Assembly: GCA_019358835.1 (NCBI GenBank)
Contig: JAHHIH010000015.1
Coordinates: forward strand, 62,001-126,000
Length of the DNA: 64,000 nucleotides
Source of the DNA: Tildeniella torsiva UHER 1998/13D
Lineage (GTDB): Bacteria; Cyanobacteriota; Cyanobacteriia; Phormidesmidales; Phormidesmidaceae
Direction of reading: 5' to 3'
The notes beneath the pieces were generated by a model. It saw only the letters and a program-made list of their open reading frames with translations. It made no database searches and was not told the DNA's origin. Numbering within the stretch: the stretch's first letter is position 1; the number at the start of each line of letters is the position of its first letter. Below are positions 28,488-37,965 of this stretch, piece after piece. A program made the translations under genes and the position numbers.

Positions 28488-28736
28488 TCACTCATCTTCG
28501 TCGTTCTCTTCATCCTCAATAGCCTGGATGGCGAGGAGAATTTCTTCTTCCTGAATTTCGAAGTCGGCTTCAGCCACCTCCCCCATGTCAAAGGCGAGCT
28601 GGAGGGCGAGCAGCTGCTTTTGCAGGCTTTCGAGGTCGTTGGTGGCCACATCAGCCTGCTCTAGCAGTTTGTTGGCGACCCAGCTAACGCCCTCAATCGG
28701 GCCGAGCACGGGGGCAAAGAGAAGTTTAAACAGCAT
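28488..28736 (-). CDS. gvpG: Gas vesicle protein GvpG
   Basis: The 82-residue acidic protein starts MLFKLLFAPVLGPIEGVSWV, the conserved GvpG N-terminus (LLxxPxxGPxxGxxWL). A helical region and an acidic tail (EDEENDEDE) follow. GvpG is a minor essential assembly factor thought to act with GvpF/GvpL in nucleating the vesicle. It is 23 bases downstream of gvpF on the same strand, forming a two-gene unit. Confidence 0.92.
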   Translation of the reverse strand: MLFKLLFAPVLGPIEGVSWVANKLLEQADVATNDLESLQKQLLALQLAFDMGEVAEADFEIQEEEILLAIQAIEDEENDEDE

Positions 28737-28759: not shown

Positions 28760-29494
28760 CTAGTTGAGCTGGGCGAAGTTGTAGGGAGCGGTGAAATTGT
28801 TGTAGCGAATCCGCAGGCGATCGCCGAAGGTACCGTCGATGGCATCTACCGCCTGGCTAAACTCCTCCTCGCTCTCCCAGGGAATCAGGAAGGCGGCGTT
28901 ATAGATCATCACGTCAGTTTGGGGCGCGTTTTCGAGCACGTCTTTGGCTAGGGGAGACAGCGCCTGGCGAAACTGGTCAATAATCCCCTGCTTGCGCTCC
29001 TCCAGGGCCGCCTCAATCTGCTGACCGATAAAAATCACCTGCTCCATACCCAGCTGGGTGCCCTCTAGCTGGTCGCGCTGGGCCCGCAAGTCGGTATTTT
29101 CGGCCATCATCATCTCCAGCTCGGTGGAGGGCTCCCACTGCACTTTAATGCTTACCTCCCGGCAGCCGTTGAGCCGCTTAAATAGCTGAGTTAAGTCTTC
29201 GGCGTAGGGTGTTACCAAATCGTCTTGCACCTGCTCCCAGCTTTCGACAATCAGGCCAAACTGAAGCGGCAGCAGCGTGCGGTGGCCCTGCTCCATGGCA
29301 GCTTCTAGCACCTTCTCGTGGCCCAGCAGATTTTTGCGGCTCGACAGGTAGCGCTTTTGGCACGCTAGGGAATAGAGAAAGGTAAAGTCGCCCAGCTGTT
29401 GAGCCTGCACCACCTGGTCGTCTAGGCCCATCAGGGGCAGCTCAGCGGGGCCAGGGGCAGGAAAAATACCGTATAGATAGTAGCGATCAGCCAT
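28760..29494 (-). CDS. gvpF: Gas vesicle protein GvpF/GvpL
   Basis: The 244-residue protein has the GvpL/GvpF pattern: RYYLYGIFPAPG at the start, KNLLGHEKVLEAAMEQG and TLLPLQFGLIVESWEQV in the N-terminal domain, a coiled linker, then VMIYNAAFLIPWESEEEF and a C-terminal GDRLRIRYNNFTAPYNFA. GvpF is a structural/assembly component at the gas-facing or growing end of the vesicle. The name follows the cyanobacterial gvpF-gvpG order. The pair is on the strand opposite to gvpA-K and 4 kb away from it. Confidence 0.92.
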   Translation of the reverse strand: MADRYYLYGIFPAPGPAELPLMGLDDQVVQAQQLGDFTFLYSLACQKRYLSSRKNLLGHEKVLEAAMEQGHRTLLPLQFGLIVESWEQVQDDLVTPYAEDLTQLFKRLNGCREVSIKVQWEPSTELEMMMAENTDLRAQRDQLEGTQLGMEQVIFIGQQIEAALEERKQGIIDQFRQALSPLAKDVLENAPQTDVMIYNAAFLIPWESEEEFSQAVDAIDGTFGDRLRIRYNNFTAPYNFAQLN

Positions 29495-33671: not shown

Positions 33672-33890
33672 ATGGCTGTTGAAAAAGTAAACTCTTCCTC
33701 TAGCTTGGCTGAAGTTGTTGACCGTATTCTGGACAAGGGCATTGTCATTGATGCTTGGGTTCGGGTTTCTCTCGTAGGTATTGAACTGCTGGCTATCGAA
33801 GCCCGTGTTGTCATCGCTTCCGTTGACACCTACCTCAAGTACGCTGAAGCCGTTGGCCTGACTGCCCAAGCTGCTGTACCCGCTGCCTAA
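33672..33890 (+). CDS. gvpA: Major gas vesicle shell protein GvpA
   Basis: The 72-residue protein is a near-canonical Gvp[41 protein letters not shown] and [22 protein letters not shown]. It polymerises into the ribbed, gas-permeable hydrophobic wall of the vesicle through its helix-strand-strand-helix core. Only one copy is present in the window; many cyanobacteria have several. A hairpin follows the gene and may set its level above the downstream minor genes. Confidence 0.98.
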
Positions 33891-34183: not shown

Positions 34184-35413
34184 GTGACAGCACTTTATGA
34201 CCAGTGGCAAGCCGCACGACAGCTGCGCCAGAGCGAGGTGGTTGACCGGCGCGATCAGGTCTCGACAGACCTGGAGCGCTGGCAGGCTGACCGGCTGGCC
34301 CATGCCGTGCAGTTGCGCCAAGACCTCGACCAGCTGATGGCCGATCTGCGCGCCAACACCACCCTATGGCTGGCCCAAACCACCGCCGATCGCGCCGCCC
34401 AGATTTTGCCCCGGCAGCAGGCCCGCCAAGACTATATTCAGCAGCTCCAGGCCGACACTGAATTATTGCTCGCCAACTACCAGGGCGATCGCGAAATTAG
34501 CGCCGCCGAAGTGCGCCAGCAGCTAGAGTACGACTGCCAAGTGCTGCAAGCCACTGTCAGCGAACTGCGCCTAGAAATCGCCCAAGAGCTGCGCCAGGTG
34601 CAGCAGCAGGTCGCCAACATTCAGGCCCAAACGGCTGTTGATCTGGCGGGCTATCGCCAAGAGCAGGCCATGGTGCGGGCCGAACTGCTGCCCCAGCTCA
34701 CCGCCTACGTCGAAGACCTCCAGGTGCAGGTGCAGGCCACCCTCAAAGACCTGACCGCTGTGCGCCAGCAGGCCGCCGTGGTAAACCAGGAGCAGAGGCA
34801 GAGCGATCGCGCCGCCCTCACCGATTCCGTCGATGCCATGTTCACCGAACTGGCCGACTTTCGCCACCAGCTCCAGGCCCAGCGGGCTCAGCTCTCCCAC
34901 GTTGTCTGGGGTGGCGCTGCCGTGGCTCAGGCTGCTCCAGCCCCTCGCCCGGTAGCAACTCGGCCCGCTGTCACTTCAGTACCGGCTCGCGCGGCAGCGC
35001 CAGGCAAAACGGCCCCTAAAGCTGCGCCCAAACCTGTGGCGGCAAAAGCTGTATCCGCTAGGGTAGTTCCTGCCAAGGCAGCACCAGCCGCAAAAATCGT
35101 ACCCGCCCGATCTACCCCAGCCAAGGTAGCCCCTGCTGCTGCCGCAACCCGCTCGGCTCCAGTTGCCACCGCCGTGGCACCAGTGGCCCCGGCAGCGGTG
35201 GCGGTGGCATCGCCCGCTCCTGAGCCCCCGTCCCTCGAAGAGGTGGTGTACAACTACCTGCACCTGGCCCAGGGTGCCCGCCTCAGCGAAATTGAGACCG
35301 AGCTTGGCATCAACCGATTTCAGGCCGTAGACGCGCTGCGATCGCTCATCCAAAAAGACCTCGTCGTCAAGCAAGACCGTACCTATCTCGTGCAAGAGGA
35401 AGCCGTTCTGTGA
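34184..35413 (+). CDS. GvpC-like gas vesicle protein with winged-helix-like C-terminus
   Basis: The GTG start follows AGGGAGA at the right distance. Of 409 residues, about 1-245 are a long Gln/Ala/Leu/Arg-rich helical region ([20 protein letters not shown] and onward), like the helical repeats of GvpC that clamp the GvpA shell. Clear 33-residue repeats are not obvious to the eye. Residues about 250-350 are an Ala/Pro/Val/Lys linker. Residues 356-397 are a winged-helix-like domain ([17 protein letters not shown]) also found at the end of GvpN. Position between gvpA and gvpN is that of gvpC. The stop overlaps the gvpN GTG (GTGA). Confidence 0.75.
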
Positions 35414-36786
35414 ACACCGTTCTCCAAGCCCGCCCCCGCAACTTCGTCTCCACTCCCACCCTAGAGCGCACTACCCTCAGGGCCCTGCGGTATCTGCAAT
35501 CGGGGTACTCAATCCACCTCAAAGGCCCCGCTGGCACCGGCAAAACCACCCTGGCCCTGCACCTGGCCGACCTGCTGGCTCGCCCCATCATGCTGCTGTT
35601 TGGCGATGACGAGTTCAAAACCTCAGACCTGATCGGCAACCAGTCGGGCTACACCCGCAAGAAGGTGGTCGATAACTACATCCACAGCGTTATGAAGGTG
35701 GAAGACGAGCTGCGCCACAACTGGATTGACTCGCGCCTCACCCTGGCCTGCCGCGAAGGCTTCACCATGGTGTACGACGAGTTCAACCGCTCCCGCCCCG
35801 AAGTCAACAACGTGCTGCTCTCAGCACTAGAGGAAAAACTCCTGGTGCTGCCCCCCAGCAACAACCGGGCCGAATACATTCGCGTCAGCCCCCACTTCCG
35901 CGCCATTCTCACCTCCAACCCCGAAGAATACTGCGGCGTCCACGGCACCCAAGATGCCCTGCAAGATCGCCTGATCACCATCAACATGCCCGAGCCCGAT
36001 GAACTGGCTCAGCAGCAAATTTTGGTGCAAAAGGTCGGCATCGACGGCTCAGCGGCGCTGCAAATTGTGCAGTTGGTCAAGGCATTTCAGTCGGCGGTTG
36101 CGCCAGACATGGTCTCGAGCCTGCGCCCTAGCCTAATGATTGCCACCATCTGCCACGACCACGGCATTCTGCCCCTGGCCGAAAACGCTGACTTCCGCGA
36201 CCTGTGCAGCGACATTCTGCTGGCCCGCTCCAAAGAGCCCGCCCCCGATGCCACTCGCCACCTGTGGAACCTGTTCAATCGATTTGTGGTTTCCCAGGCC
36301 GAACTGGTCAACGATCTCACCCTCAAGCCCGAGGCCCCGCCTACGGCTCGTTTCCACGGTGAAGAAGAGGATGATGCCCCGGCCCCACCCCTTGAGGATT
36401 TGATCGAGACTGTCTCTCAAGAGGTTGTAGTTGATGATGAGCCTGAGGCCCAAGTCCTTCAAGTCGAAGAACCCGCTGTGCCTGTCATCCCGGAGGTTCA
36501 GAGCGAAACCGTGGTGAAATTACCGGCTGAGCCCGAGGCTCTAGTGGAGGAGGCTCCCCAGGCCGAAGCCAGCGTCAGCGATGCCAGCTTTAACGATGAT
36601 ATTGAAACCCGCATTTTTGACTATCTCGACGCGACAGGTACCGCATCTCTCGCTACTATCGAGGCAGCTCTGGGCTTAAACCGCTTTCAGATGGTTAACG
36701 CCCTTAGATCGATGCTCGATCAGTCGCTGATCGAAAAACAAGAAACCGATGGACAGCCCACCGGCTACCAGCTGAGTTCTAACTGA
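35410..36786 (+). CDS. gvpN: Gas vesicle AAA+ ATPase GvpN, with C-terminal extension
   Basis: The AAA+ core (about 1-270) has Walker [13 protein letters not shown], the GvpN segment [20 protein letters not shown], Walker B-like [21 protein letters not shown] and sensor [19 protein letters not shown]. GvpN is needed for vesicle elongation and may remodel GvpC or the shell. After the core come about 100 acidic, Glu/Pro/Val-rich residues and then a 42-residue winged-helix-like domain ([15 protein letters not shown]) at residues 403-444. That makes 458 residues, much longer than the core alone. It starts at a GTG in a four-base overlap with the GvpC-like gene. Confidence 0.95.
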
Positions 36787-36798
36787 AGGTAATCTGCC

Positions 36799-37149
36799 GT
36801 GACCCCCTCTACCCCCACGACCCGCCCCCAACCCGGTCGCAGCATGGCTACCGCCACCCAAGGCTCTTCTCTGGTGGATGTGATTGAGCGGGTGCTCGAC
36901 AAAGGCATTGTGATTGCCGGAGATATTTCGGTCTCCGTTGGTTCTACCGAACTGTTGAGCATTCGCATTCGCCTGATCATTTCCTCGGTCGATAAGGCCC
37001 GCGAAATTGGCATTAACTGGTGGGAAAGCGACCCCTACCTCAGCAGCCGCACCAATGAGCTGCTAGAGGCTAATCAACAGCTCCAGACTCGTTTAGAAAC
37101 CCTAGAGGCCGAACTCAAGGCTCTGCGGCCCGCCGAAGCCGTGAGCTAG
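36799..37149 (+). CDS. gvpJ: Gas vesicle protein GvpJ
   Basis: The 116-residue protein has a GvpA-like core (SLVDVIERVLDKGIVIAGDI and STELLSIRIRLIISSVDK) after a 20-residue Pro/Thr-rich leader. A charged coiled-coil tail follows (NELLEANQQLQTRLETLEAE). GvpJ is a minor shell protein used at the conical tips or in nucleation. The GTG start at 36799 is preceded by GAAGG; an ATG at 36844 is an alternative. It lies 12 bases after gvpN and ends the first transcription unit, with a hairpin after it. Confidence 0.93.
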   Translation: MTPSTPTTRPQPGRSMATATQGSSLVDVIERVLDKGIVIAGDISVSVGSTELLSIRIRLIISSVDKAREIGINWWESDPYLSSRTNELLEANQQLQTRLETLEAELKALRPAEAVS

Positions 37150-37432: not shown

Positions 37433-37494
37433 TTCCACGTGGTAGGGGCTATGGCGGCAGAATTGCCCTCCTTGAGATGCACTAGACTGTGGCT

Positions 37495-37965
37495 ATGACC
37501 TCTGAAAACGCCGAGCCAGACCTGTTGCCGAGCCTGGCGCTACAGCCCCCTGCCAAAACCGATGCGGGCCTAGCGCCCCTGCTGCTCACCGTCATTGAAC
37601 TGGTACGCCAGCTGATGGAAGCCCAGGTCATTCGCCGCATGGAGTCGGGCGATCTCAACGATGACGACCTAGAACGGGCCGCTGACAGCCTGCGCAAGCT
37701 AGAAGAGCAGGTGGTGTCGATGTGCGAAATCTTTGATGTAGACCCCGCCGACCTCAACATTGACCTGGGGGAAATCGGTACCCTACTGCCTAAGGAAGGG
37801 AACTACTACCCCGGTCAAAAAAATCAGAACCCGACTATTTTGGAGCTGCTCGATCGCCTCCTCGATACTGGCGTTGTCGTCGAAGGCGACGTTGACCTGG
37901 GCATGGCGCAGCTCAACCTCATCCACGCCAAACTGCGCCTGGTACTCACCTCCAAACCCATCTAG
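37495..37965 (+). CDS. gvpK: Gas vesicle protein GvpK with GvpA-like C-terminus
   Basis: The protein is 156 residues from the ATG at 37495. The GvpK domain spans about 20-100: GLAPLLLTVIELVRQLMEAQ, VIRRMESGDLNDDDLERAAD and ADLNIDLGEIGTLLP. The last 43 residues (TILELLDRLLDTGVVVEGDV and onward) resemble the core of GvpA and GvpJ ([12 protein letters not shown]). So the gene reads as GvpK plus a shell-protein-like domain, which may be normal for cyanobacterial GvpK. GvpK is an essential minor protein in vesicle nucleation. It converges with the kinase-WD40 gene. Confidence 0.95.
   Translation: MTSENAEPDLLPSLALQPPAKTDAGLAPLLLTVIELVRQLMEAQVIRRMESGDLNDDDLERAADSLRKLEEQVVSMCEIFDVDPADLNIDLGEIGTLLPKEGNYYPGQKNQNPTILELLDRLLDTGVVVEGDVDLGMAQLNLIHAKLRLVLTSKPI

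Follow-up and report, generated by a model that had tools for sequence, protein, structure and literature searches.

In many cyanobacterial families the gas-vesicle coat protein GvpC and the AAA+ motor GvpN both end in homologous, conserved, predicted winged helices, which stand behind long linkers of variable length. We describe these tails in the gvp locus of the window, by which we mean the whole 64,000-nucleotide stretch of DNA that was analysed, and in related loci. The new element, drawn from sequence comparison and structure prediction, is that coat and motor have a widespread, ancient and conserved winged helix in common. With about even confidence, we read the two tails as a protein-docking module that would bring the GvpN ATPase to the GvpC coat. 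Old, conserved and borne by both coat and motor, the domain names two exact segments to delete, to swap or to use as bait, and docking, if it takes place, would make vesicle growth open to manipulation and give cargo a site of attachment on the coat.

The gvp locus of the window and the identity of its proteins

The gvp genes of the window and the parts of the two tailed proteins are listed in Table 1. The gvpC-like gene and gvpN overlap by 4 bases, and within the window's family the same 4-base overlap recurs in all listed loci that show both genes. GvpN scores above the curated cut-off of its model. The two-part protein formed by GvpK and a C-terminal GvpA-like domain (PF00741) is also found in the gvp loci of many families.

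Table 1. Features of the gvp locus, in positions of the window
Feature	Position	Strand	Basis
gvpA (shell protein), next to and upstream of the gvpC-like gene	33672..33890	+	Pfam PF00741 at 33702-33818
gvpC-like gene, 409 aa, GTG start	34184..35413	+	ORF between gvpA and gvpN; lag-33 periodicity
GvpC repeat core, residues 1-243	34184..34912	+	end resembles classical GvpC end
GvpC Ala/Pro/Val/Lys linker, 106 aa	34913..35230	+	composition
GvpC tail, predicted winged helix, 60 aa	35231..35410	+	AlphaFold mean pLDDT 92.9; Pfam TrmB 24.6 bits
gvpN, 458 aa, GTG start	35410..36786	+	TIGR02640 358.9 bits (cut-off 266.8)
GvpN AAA+ ATPase domain, residues 12-273	35443..36228	+	Pfam/NCBIfam matches
GvpN Glu/Val/Pro linker, residues 291-396 (start chosen by us)	36280..36597	+	
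GvpN tail, predicted winged helix, 60 aa	36598..36777	+	AlphaFold mean pLDDT 94.4; hhalign
gvpJ-like gene	36799..37149	+	PF00741; GvpJ model below its cut-off
gvpK with C-terminal GvpA-like domain	37489..37965	+	PF05121 and PF00741 in one ORF
gvpF	28760..29494	-	NF052351 363.7 bits (cut-off 350)
gvpG	28488..28736	-	PF05120 74.4 bits (cut-off 30.6)

The GvpC-like gene lies between gvpA and gvpN, as cyanobacterial GvpC does. Its core (residues 1-243) carries a 33-residue period, with a lag-33 score of 0.133 compared with -0.545 (sd 0.142) for shuffled sequences, none of 1000 being as high; lag 33 was the best among lags 15-59, with lag 91 higher (0.44) in a scan of lags 10-99, and the period is far weaker than in classical GvpC (1.15-3.05 in family f32, which we take to be Nostocaceae). 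A relaxed form of the GvpC end motif, [FY][RHKQ]xx[LF]x(2-10)[VIL][WFY]G, which we adopted once the strict version, with a spacing of 2-5 residues, had given no match in the window, falls at residues 226-243 and closes the repeat core. The relaxed motif is present in 73 of 86 complete tail-bearing upstream ORFs, in 21 of 35 tail-less ones and in 1 of 2420 shuffled sequences; the strict form occurs in 33 of 88 rows with a tail and in 20 of 35 without one.

The curated GvpC repeat models PF01304 and TIGR02641 gave no match to the window protein up to E 1; the positive controls L109 and L114 matched strongly. Both of the two tail-bearing relatives tested, L173 (20.0 bits) and L138 (26.9 bits), pass TIGR02641 (cut-off 18.8); PF01304 gave no match up to E 0.01 with L173, L138 or L153. 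By its sequence, we take the GvpC-like protein for a GvpC that has diverged and has gained a linker and a tail after the classical end. Classical GvpC, the one usually studied, is here without the tail.

The two proteins share their C-terminal ends

The first-pass annotation had aligned residues 356-397 of the GvpC-like protein (35249-35374) with residues 403-444 of GvpN (36616-36741), and this gap-free match, with 20 of 42 positions identical, was reproduced exactly, coordinates included. BLASTP of tail against tail gave 43.75% identity over 48 residues at E 2.3e-13 (5.3e-13 without composition correction). Shuffling the GvpC tail 1000 times gave a score of 41 at best, compared with 107 for the real pair of tails, and the whole proteins scored 128 compared with 77 for shuffles; chance and composition are thereby ruled out as the source of the similarity. 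At the DNA level the shared stretch is identical at 68 of 126 bases, with 22, 31 and 15 of 42 identities at codon positions 1, 2 and 3, respectively. This identity is low, and lowest at third positions, indicating a similarity at the protein level and an old rather than a recent DNA copy.

The description of long low-complexity linkers, Ala/Pro-rich in GvpC and Glu/Val/Pro-rich in GvpN, agrees with their composition: the GvpC linker has 106 residues with Ala at 0.39 and Pro at 0.20, and that of GvpN, counted from our chosen start at residue 291, also has 106, with Glu at 0.18, Val at 0.15 and Pro at 0.12. Across loci the linkers range from 12 to 192 residues in GvpC and from 9 to 400 in GvpN; in L019 and L020, GvpN reaches 749 and 757 aa, and the segment that separates the ATPase from the tail is very long. 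In the window, the GvpC chain ends at the tail itself and that of GvpN two residues beyond it, the part preceding each tail being linker by composition. A profile search of the window's genome found no further copy of the tail below E 1 besides these two, the next match standing at 1.46.

Both tails are predicted to be winged helices

The 60-residue tails were modelled alone with AlphaFold, each from its own alignment (66 sequences for GvpC, 63 for GvpN). The models (mean pLDDT in Table 1) place helices at 2-13, 18-25 and 29-41 and strands at 45-48 and 51-54 in the GvpC tail, and helices at 2-13, 18-25 and 29-41 and strands at 15-17, 45-48 and 56-59 in the GvpN tail. Both show the predicted winged-helix layout, namely H1-H2-H3 followed by a two-strand wing, and the profiles of the two tails match each other in hhalign at E 1.2e-32. 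The models thus agree with the original guess of a winged helix, and unrelated folds, the outcome that had been set against it, did not appear.

Among the structure matches listed, the nearest to the GvpC tail were 4ija_B (Z 11.5, rmsd 1.4, 59 aligned) and 4lb5_A (Z 10.9, rmsd 0.9, 55 aligned), and the nearest to the GvpN tail was 5j6x_B (Z 12.4, rmsd 0.7, 60 aligned); matches within one Z unit were treated as tied, and the winged helices come from many families. The majority of the matches listed are DNA-binding regulators or Z-DNA binders. In Foldseek at E <= 0.001 the GvpC tail had no hits and the GvpN tail had 2, and a sequence search of the PDB with 34 tails gave weak hits alone (best E 0.063). 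Searches of Pfam and NCBIfam with the window tails yielded nothing above cut-offs, only weak sub-threshold matches. The commonest weak match was Pfam TrmB (PF01978), found at E <= 0.01 for 51 of 66 GvpC tails and 43 of 63 GvpN tails; in the window the GvpC tail scores 24.6 bits and the GvpN tail 15.8 bits, both below the gathering cut-off of 25.6. A common fold by itself demonstrates no function.

The tail surface carries mixed signals

Among the conserved residues, Arg29, with which the recognition helix begins, occurs in 53 of 53 GvpC genera and 49 of 52 GvpN genera. Asp49 and Arg50 of the wing are kept in 50 and 51 of 53 GvpC genera and poorly in GvpN tails (17 and 25 of 52 genera), and GvpC tails also keep Val33 (51 of 53), Asp34 (45 of 53) and Arg37 (49 of 53). 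The register of the recognition helix was taken from a sequence alignment to 4hob, which we take to be a Z-alpha domain, and in this alignment the Asn and Tyr positions of Z-alpha hold Val and Arg in the tails. These recognition-helix Asn and Tyr residues, which contact Z-DNA, correspond to Val33 and Arg37, and the positions of Val33 and Asp34 are polar DNA contacts in Z-alpha and MarR proteins. The wing of the GvpC tail is a two-residue turn in the predicted model. In the window's family both tails have a net charge of about -2; in each of the 13 other families the average for the GvpC tails is mildly positive (+0.5 to +3.0). The signals are mixed: Arg29 and the wing Asp/Arg could serve DNA, but Val33 and Asp34 stand in place of polar contacts.

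These features bear on the possibility that the tails bind nucleic acid. Growing vesicles, or the factors that assemble them, would then be tied to the nucleoid or gvp mRNA, or GvpC and GvpN would exert feedback on the expression of gvp genes. The nearness of the predicted fold to the DNA and RNA binders AspA, Z-alpha and MarR/ArsR, the frequent TrmB matches, the conserved arginine and GvpC-tail wing pair, and the positive GvpC-tail charge outside the window's family all speak for it. The negative charge of both tails in the window's family, Val33 and Asp34 in place of polar contacts, the minimal wing of the GvpC tail, the poorly kept wing residues of GvpN, and the nature of the carriers, a shell coat and an assembly motor, speak against it, and we consider it unlikely. 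A more specific form, in which the winged helices still bind nucleic acid and tether both the vesicle coat and the growth motor to the nucleoid or gvp mRNA, seems to us improbable; were it true, vesicle assembly, and perhaps partition, would be under DNA or RNA control, and such a link would be absent where GvpC is classical and tail-less.

The tails are widespread in cyanobacterial gvp loci

In the window's order, 31 of 63 genomes hold a GvpN above the cut-off, and all 31 hold a GvpN tail at the DNA level; in one of them (L018:2539-2668) the tail is split between two frames, by either a real frameshift or an assembly error. Among 388 genomes drawn from the class, 125 gave a tail match at E <= 0.01, some of these being weak single matches, and 171 a GvpN at E <= 1e-60. 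We mapped 131 loci, taking in 100 of the 141 loci outside family f1, and counted tails in the 127 that had more than 300 bases upstream of gvpN. Both tails were present in 79 loci, the GvpC-side tail only in 11, the GvpN tail only in 8 and neither in 29; by genus, the same classes held 45, 8, 7 and 14 of 74. The GvpN tail is thus kept in 87 of the 127 loci. The class with neither tail includes three loci (L183, L198, L200) in which no GvpC was recognised beside gvpN. The first-pass annotation had envisaged that the tail might prove confined to one recently duplicated locus, an outcome that these counts contradict. A raw table of 71 genera (ORF-based count) gave a Fisher p of 0.0007 for co-presence of the tails, with kinship ignored; a phylogenetic pair test on the ATPase tree, which takes kinship into account, yielded few supported pairs.

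Five of the 8 loci with the GvpN tail only belong to f32; four of these have a GvpC with strong classical repeats, and in the fifth (L182) no GvpC ORF was seen. Of the 11 loci with the GvpC tail only, 10 belong to f24, a family in which L143, L157 and L159 have a GvpN without the winged helix, whose long extension ends in a short ESLI(K/S)LL...DDL-like motif. In genus g38 (G086), which might be Planktothrix-like, a search for tail-less members found both tails in all three genomes covered. Carriers by name include Leptolyngbya, Nodosilinea, Phormidium, Halomicronema, Oculatella, Stenomitos and Pantanalinema, and a single scan of the species collection with a narrow peptide pattern returned 42 loci, all cyanobacterial by title. 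The 131 mapped loci hold at most one tail upstream of gvpN and at most one from gvpN onward (the split tail of L018 apart), and none on the opposite strand.

Several loci depart from this layout. In L136 the GvpC tail (L136:2992-3144) lies outside the listed GvpC frame, and the gene is thus apparently frame-shifted. Upstream proteins of f23 and f5 (L191:2816-3859, L193:2902-3924 and others) end in a different conserved C-terminal block of the RDTVRDLLAQGANTLKVDPSDILNTLLQMAE type, for which a Pfam search with two of the proteins gave no match up to E 0.01; GvpN in these families has 292-304 aa and no extension. Seven genomes of genus g7 in family f1 (G013-G018, G020) carry a divergent GvpN-like protein in frames of ~291-327 aa, scoring below the GvpN cut-off (E 1.9e-43 to 2.0e-52).

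The tails appear to be old and, in the window's genus, are under purifying selection

In a tree of 106 tails, the GvpC/GvpN label changes 5 times compared with 35.5 in shuffles, which rules out recent duplication or gene conversion, and the two tails apparently stem from an old split. The GvpC tails as one clade were not rejected (AU p 0.298); the tree is built on 60 columns, with many forks unresolved and unsettled bootstrap, and, being short and unsettled, it allows a single origin of the GvpC tails but does not prove it.

Mean identity between families is 0.524 for GvpC tails and 0.323 for GvpN tails, that of GvpC to GvpN tails being 37%. Of 90 GvpN tails, 46 are closer to a GvpC tail than to any GvpN tail when compared with the tails of other families. 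Within the window's genus, dN/dS is ~0.08 for GvpC (15 tails) and ~0.10 for GvpN (18 tails), pairs with saturated dS having been dropped, and by these ratios both tails are under purifying selection there; together with the wide distribution, this selection rules out an artefact. On a quick tree of the ATPase domain, the state of the GvpN tail changes 13 times and that of the GvpC tail 5 times. Taken together, identity, dN/dS and state changes mark the GvpC tail as the steadier and slower-evolving of the two.

This asymmetry is what would be expected if the GvpC tail alone were functional, serving the coat as spacer, cap or crosslinker and so holding vesicles apart or bundling them, and the GvpN copy were an old duplicate with little role left. 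The higher GvpC identity, the GvpC-type nearest neighbours of many GvpN tails and the more frequent changes of the GvpN tail fit this explanation, but GvpN tails are themselves under purifying selection and are retained widely, in 8 loci even without a GvpC tail, and we hold it to be rather improbable. That the domain has been inherited but no longer serves any role is very unlikely: the 29 loci without either tail, and the planktic Planktothrix strains that float with a shorter GvpC than benthic strains, according to a 2017 study (PMC5259702), are consistent with dispensability, but the purifying selection, confidently predicted fold and wide retention argue against it.

A candidate docking module in vesicle assembly

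The reading that we favour, docking between proteins, would work as follows. GvpC, a rod of 33-residue repeats, would lie on the shell, its Ala/Pro arm holding the winged helix off the surface, and GvpN, an AAA+ motor, would bear the sister winged helix on its own acidic arm. The knobs of both proteins would bind one common surface, which in the simplest case is that of another knob (GvpC-GvpC and GvpC-GvpN) and otherwise that of a third assembly factor; such docking would concentrate the GvpN ATPase at the GvpC-coated shell and link neighbouring GvpC molecules during vesicle growth. Of the two versions, direct contact between the tails is a tentative and somewhat doubtful proposal, and a common third partner is one to the same degree. 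Protein binding itself, the identity of the partner, the flexibility of the arms and the recruiting step are the parts of this scheme that we infer.

Docking is favoured by the presence of both tails in 79 of 127 loci while the linkers vary widely in length; by the purifying selection on both tails and the start of gvpN 4 bases inside gvpC in the window's family; by the limit of one tail per side of the locus, with none elsewhere in the window's genome below E 1; and by the net charge of about -2 in the window's family and the Val33/Asp34 pair at polar DNA-contact positions. It is also favoured by work on other systems. In Halobacterium, GvpN and GvpO bound GvpC through its C-terminal part only (rf 10-16), and GvpC-GvpC contacts gave an rf of 20.7 for Cterm/Cterm and 10.1 for Cterm/Nterm (PMC9372576). 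GvpN is needed for elongation, in that gvpN mutants form bicones that do not elongate, and how GvpN acts on the growing shell is an open question (PMC11445434).

Against docking stand the 11 loci with the GvpC tail alone and the 8 with the GvpN tail alone, the 13 (GvpN) and 5 (GvpC) changes on the tree, the DNA and Z-DNA binders that make up most of the structural neighbours listed, and the mildly positive GvpC tails of 13 families. The Halobacterium GvpC end, moreover, has a zinc-finger motif and is a different kind of domain (PMC9372576). Distances among GvpC tails and among GvpN tails showed no covariation once the ATPase domain was controlled for (partial r of 0.002 over 45 pairs; 965 of 2000 permutations reached this value). 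Mutual pairing of the tails, one of the roles first proposed, is weakened by this result and by the occurrence of each tail without the other; together they argue against an obligatory GvpC-GvpN lock, and less against weak docking or docking with many partners.

Comparison with known systems

The first-pass annotation knew of no standard description of such a tail. This is very nearly so: among the curated Pfam and NCBIfam models the matches were weak and all below the cut-offs, but a 2017 study of Planktothrix had noted a 28-residue similarity between GvpC and GvpN (PMC5259702). According to that study, every non-planktic strain has a 40 kDa GvpC in which 28 residues at the C-terminus are 64% identical to Planktothrix GvpN, the C-terminus of this GvpC40 shares 78% similarity over 60 residues with that of the Geitlerinema sp. 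PCC 7407 GvpC, and planktic strains have a shorter GvpC (PMC5259702). Planktothrix GvpC40 and Geitlerinema GvpC thus resemble the window protein as long GvpCs with a GvpN-similar C-terminal stretch; the report, in the part used here, gives this one sentence on one genus, and fold, wider distribution, selection and role are absent from that part. A search of open-licence PMC papers, a set that leaves most subscription papers outside, for GvpN with 'winged helix' or related terms found nothing further.

The GvpC of Halobacterium salinarum, compared by description, likewise has a globular end after its repeats that contacts GvpC and binds GvpN and GvpO, but this end is an archaeal 54-residue fragment with a zinc-finger motif, and the sections cited mention no copy of it on GvpN (PMC9372576).

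The TrmB, MarR and ArsR families (Pfam PF01978, PF12802) share the predicted fold and a weak sequence similarity with the tails; they are DNA-binding regulators, whereas here a 60-residue domain terminates a structural protein and an ATPase. In MarR and ArsR regulators, dimerisation helices of their own flank the winged helix. Z-alpha domains (PKZ, ADAR1, ORF112) have a backbone very similar to that predicted for the tails (the GvpN tail and 5j6x_B at Z 12.4, rmsd 0.7), but their Z-DNA contact residues are not retained in the tails. Classical cyanobacterial GvpC (f32) shares with the window protein its gene position, a period of 33 residues and the FRxxL...G end motif, but it stops at or just past this motif, where the window protein continues into its linker and tail.
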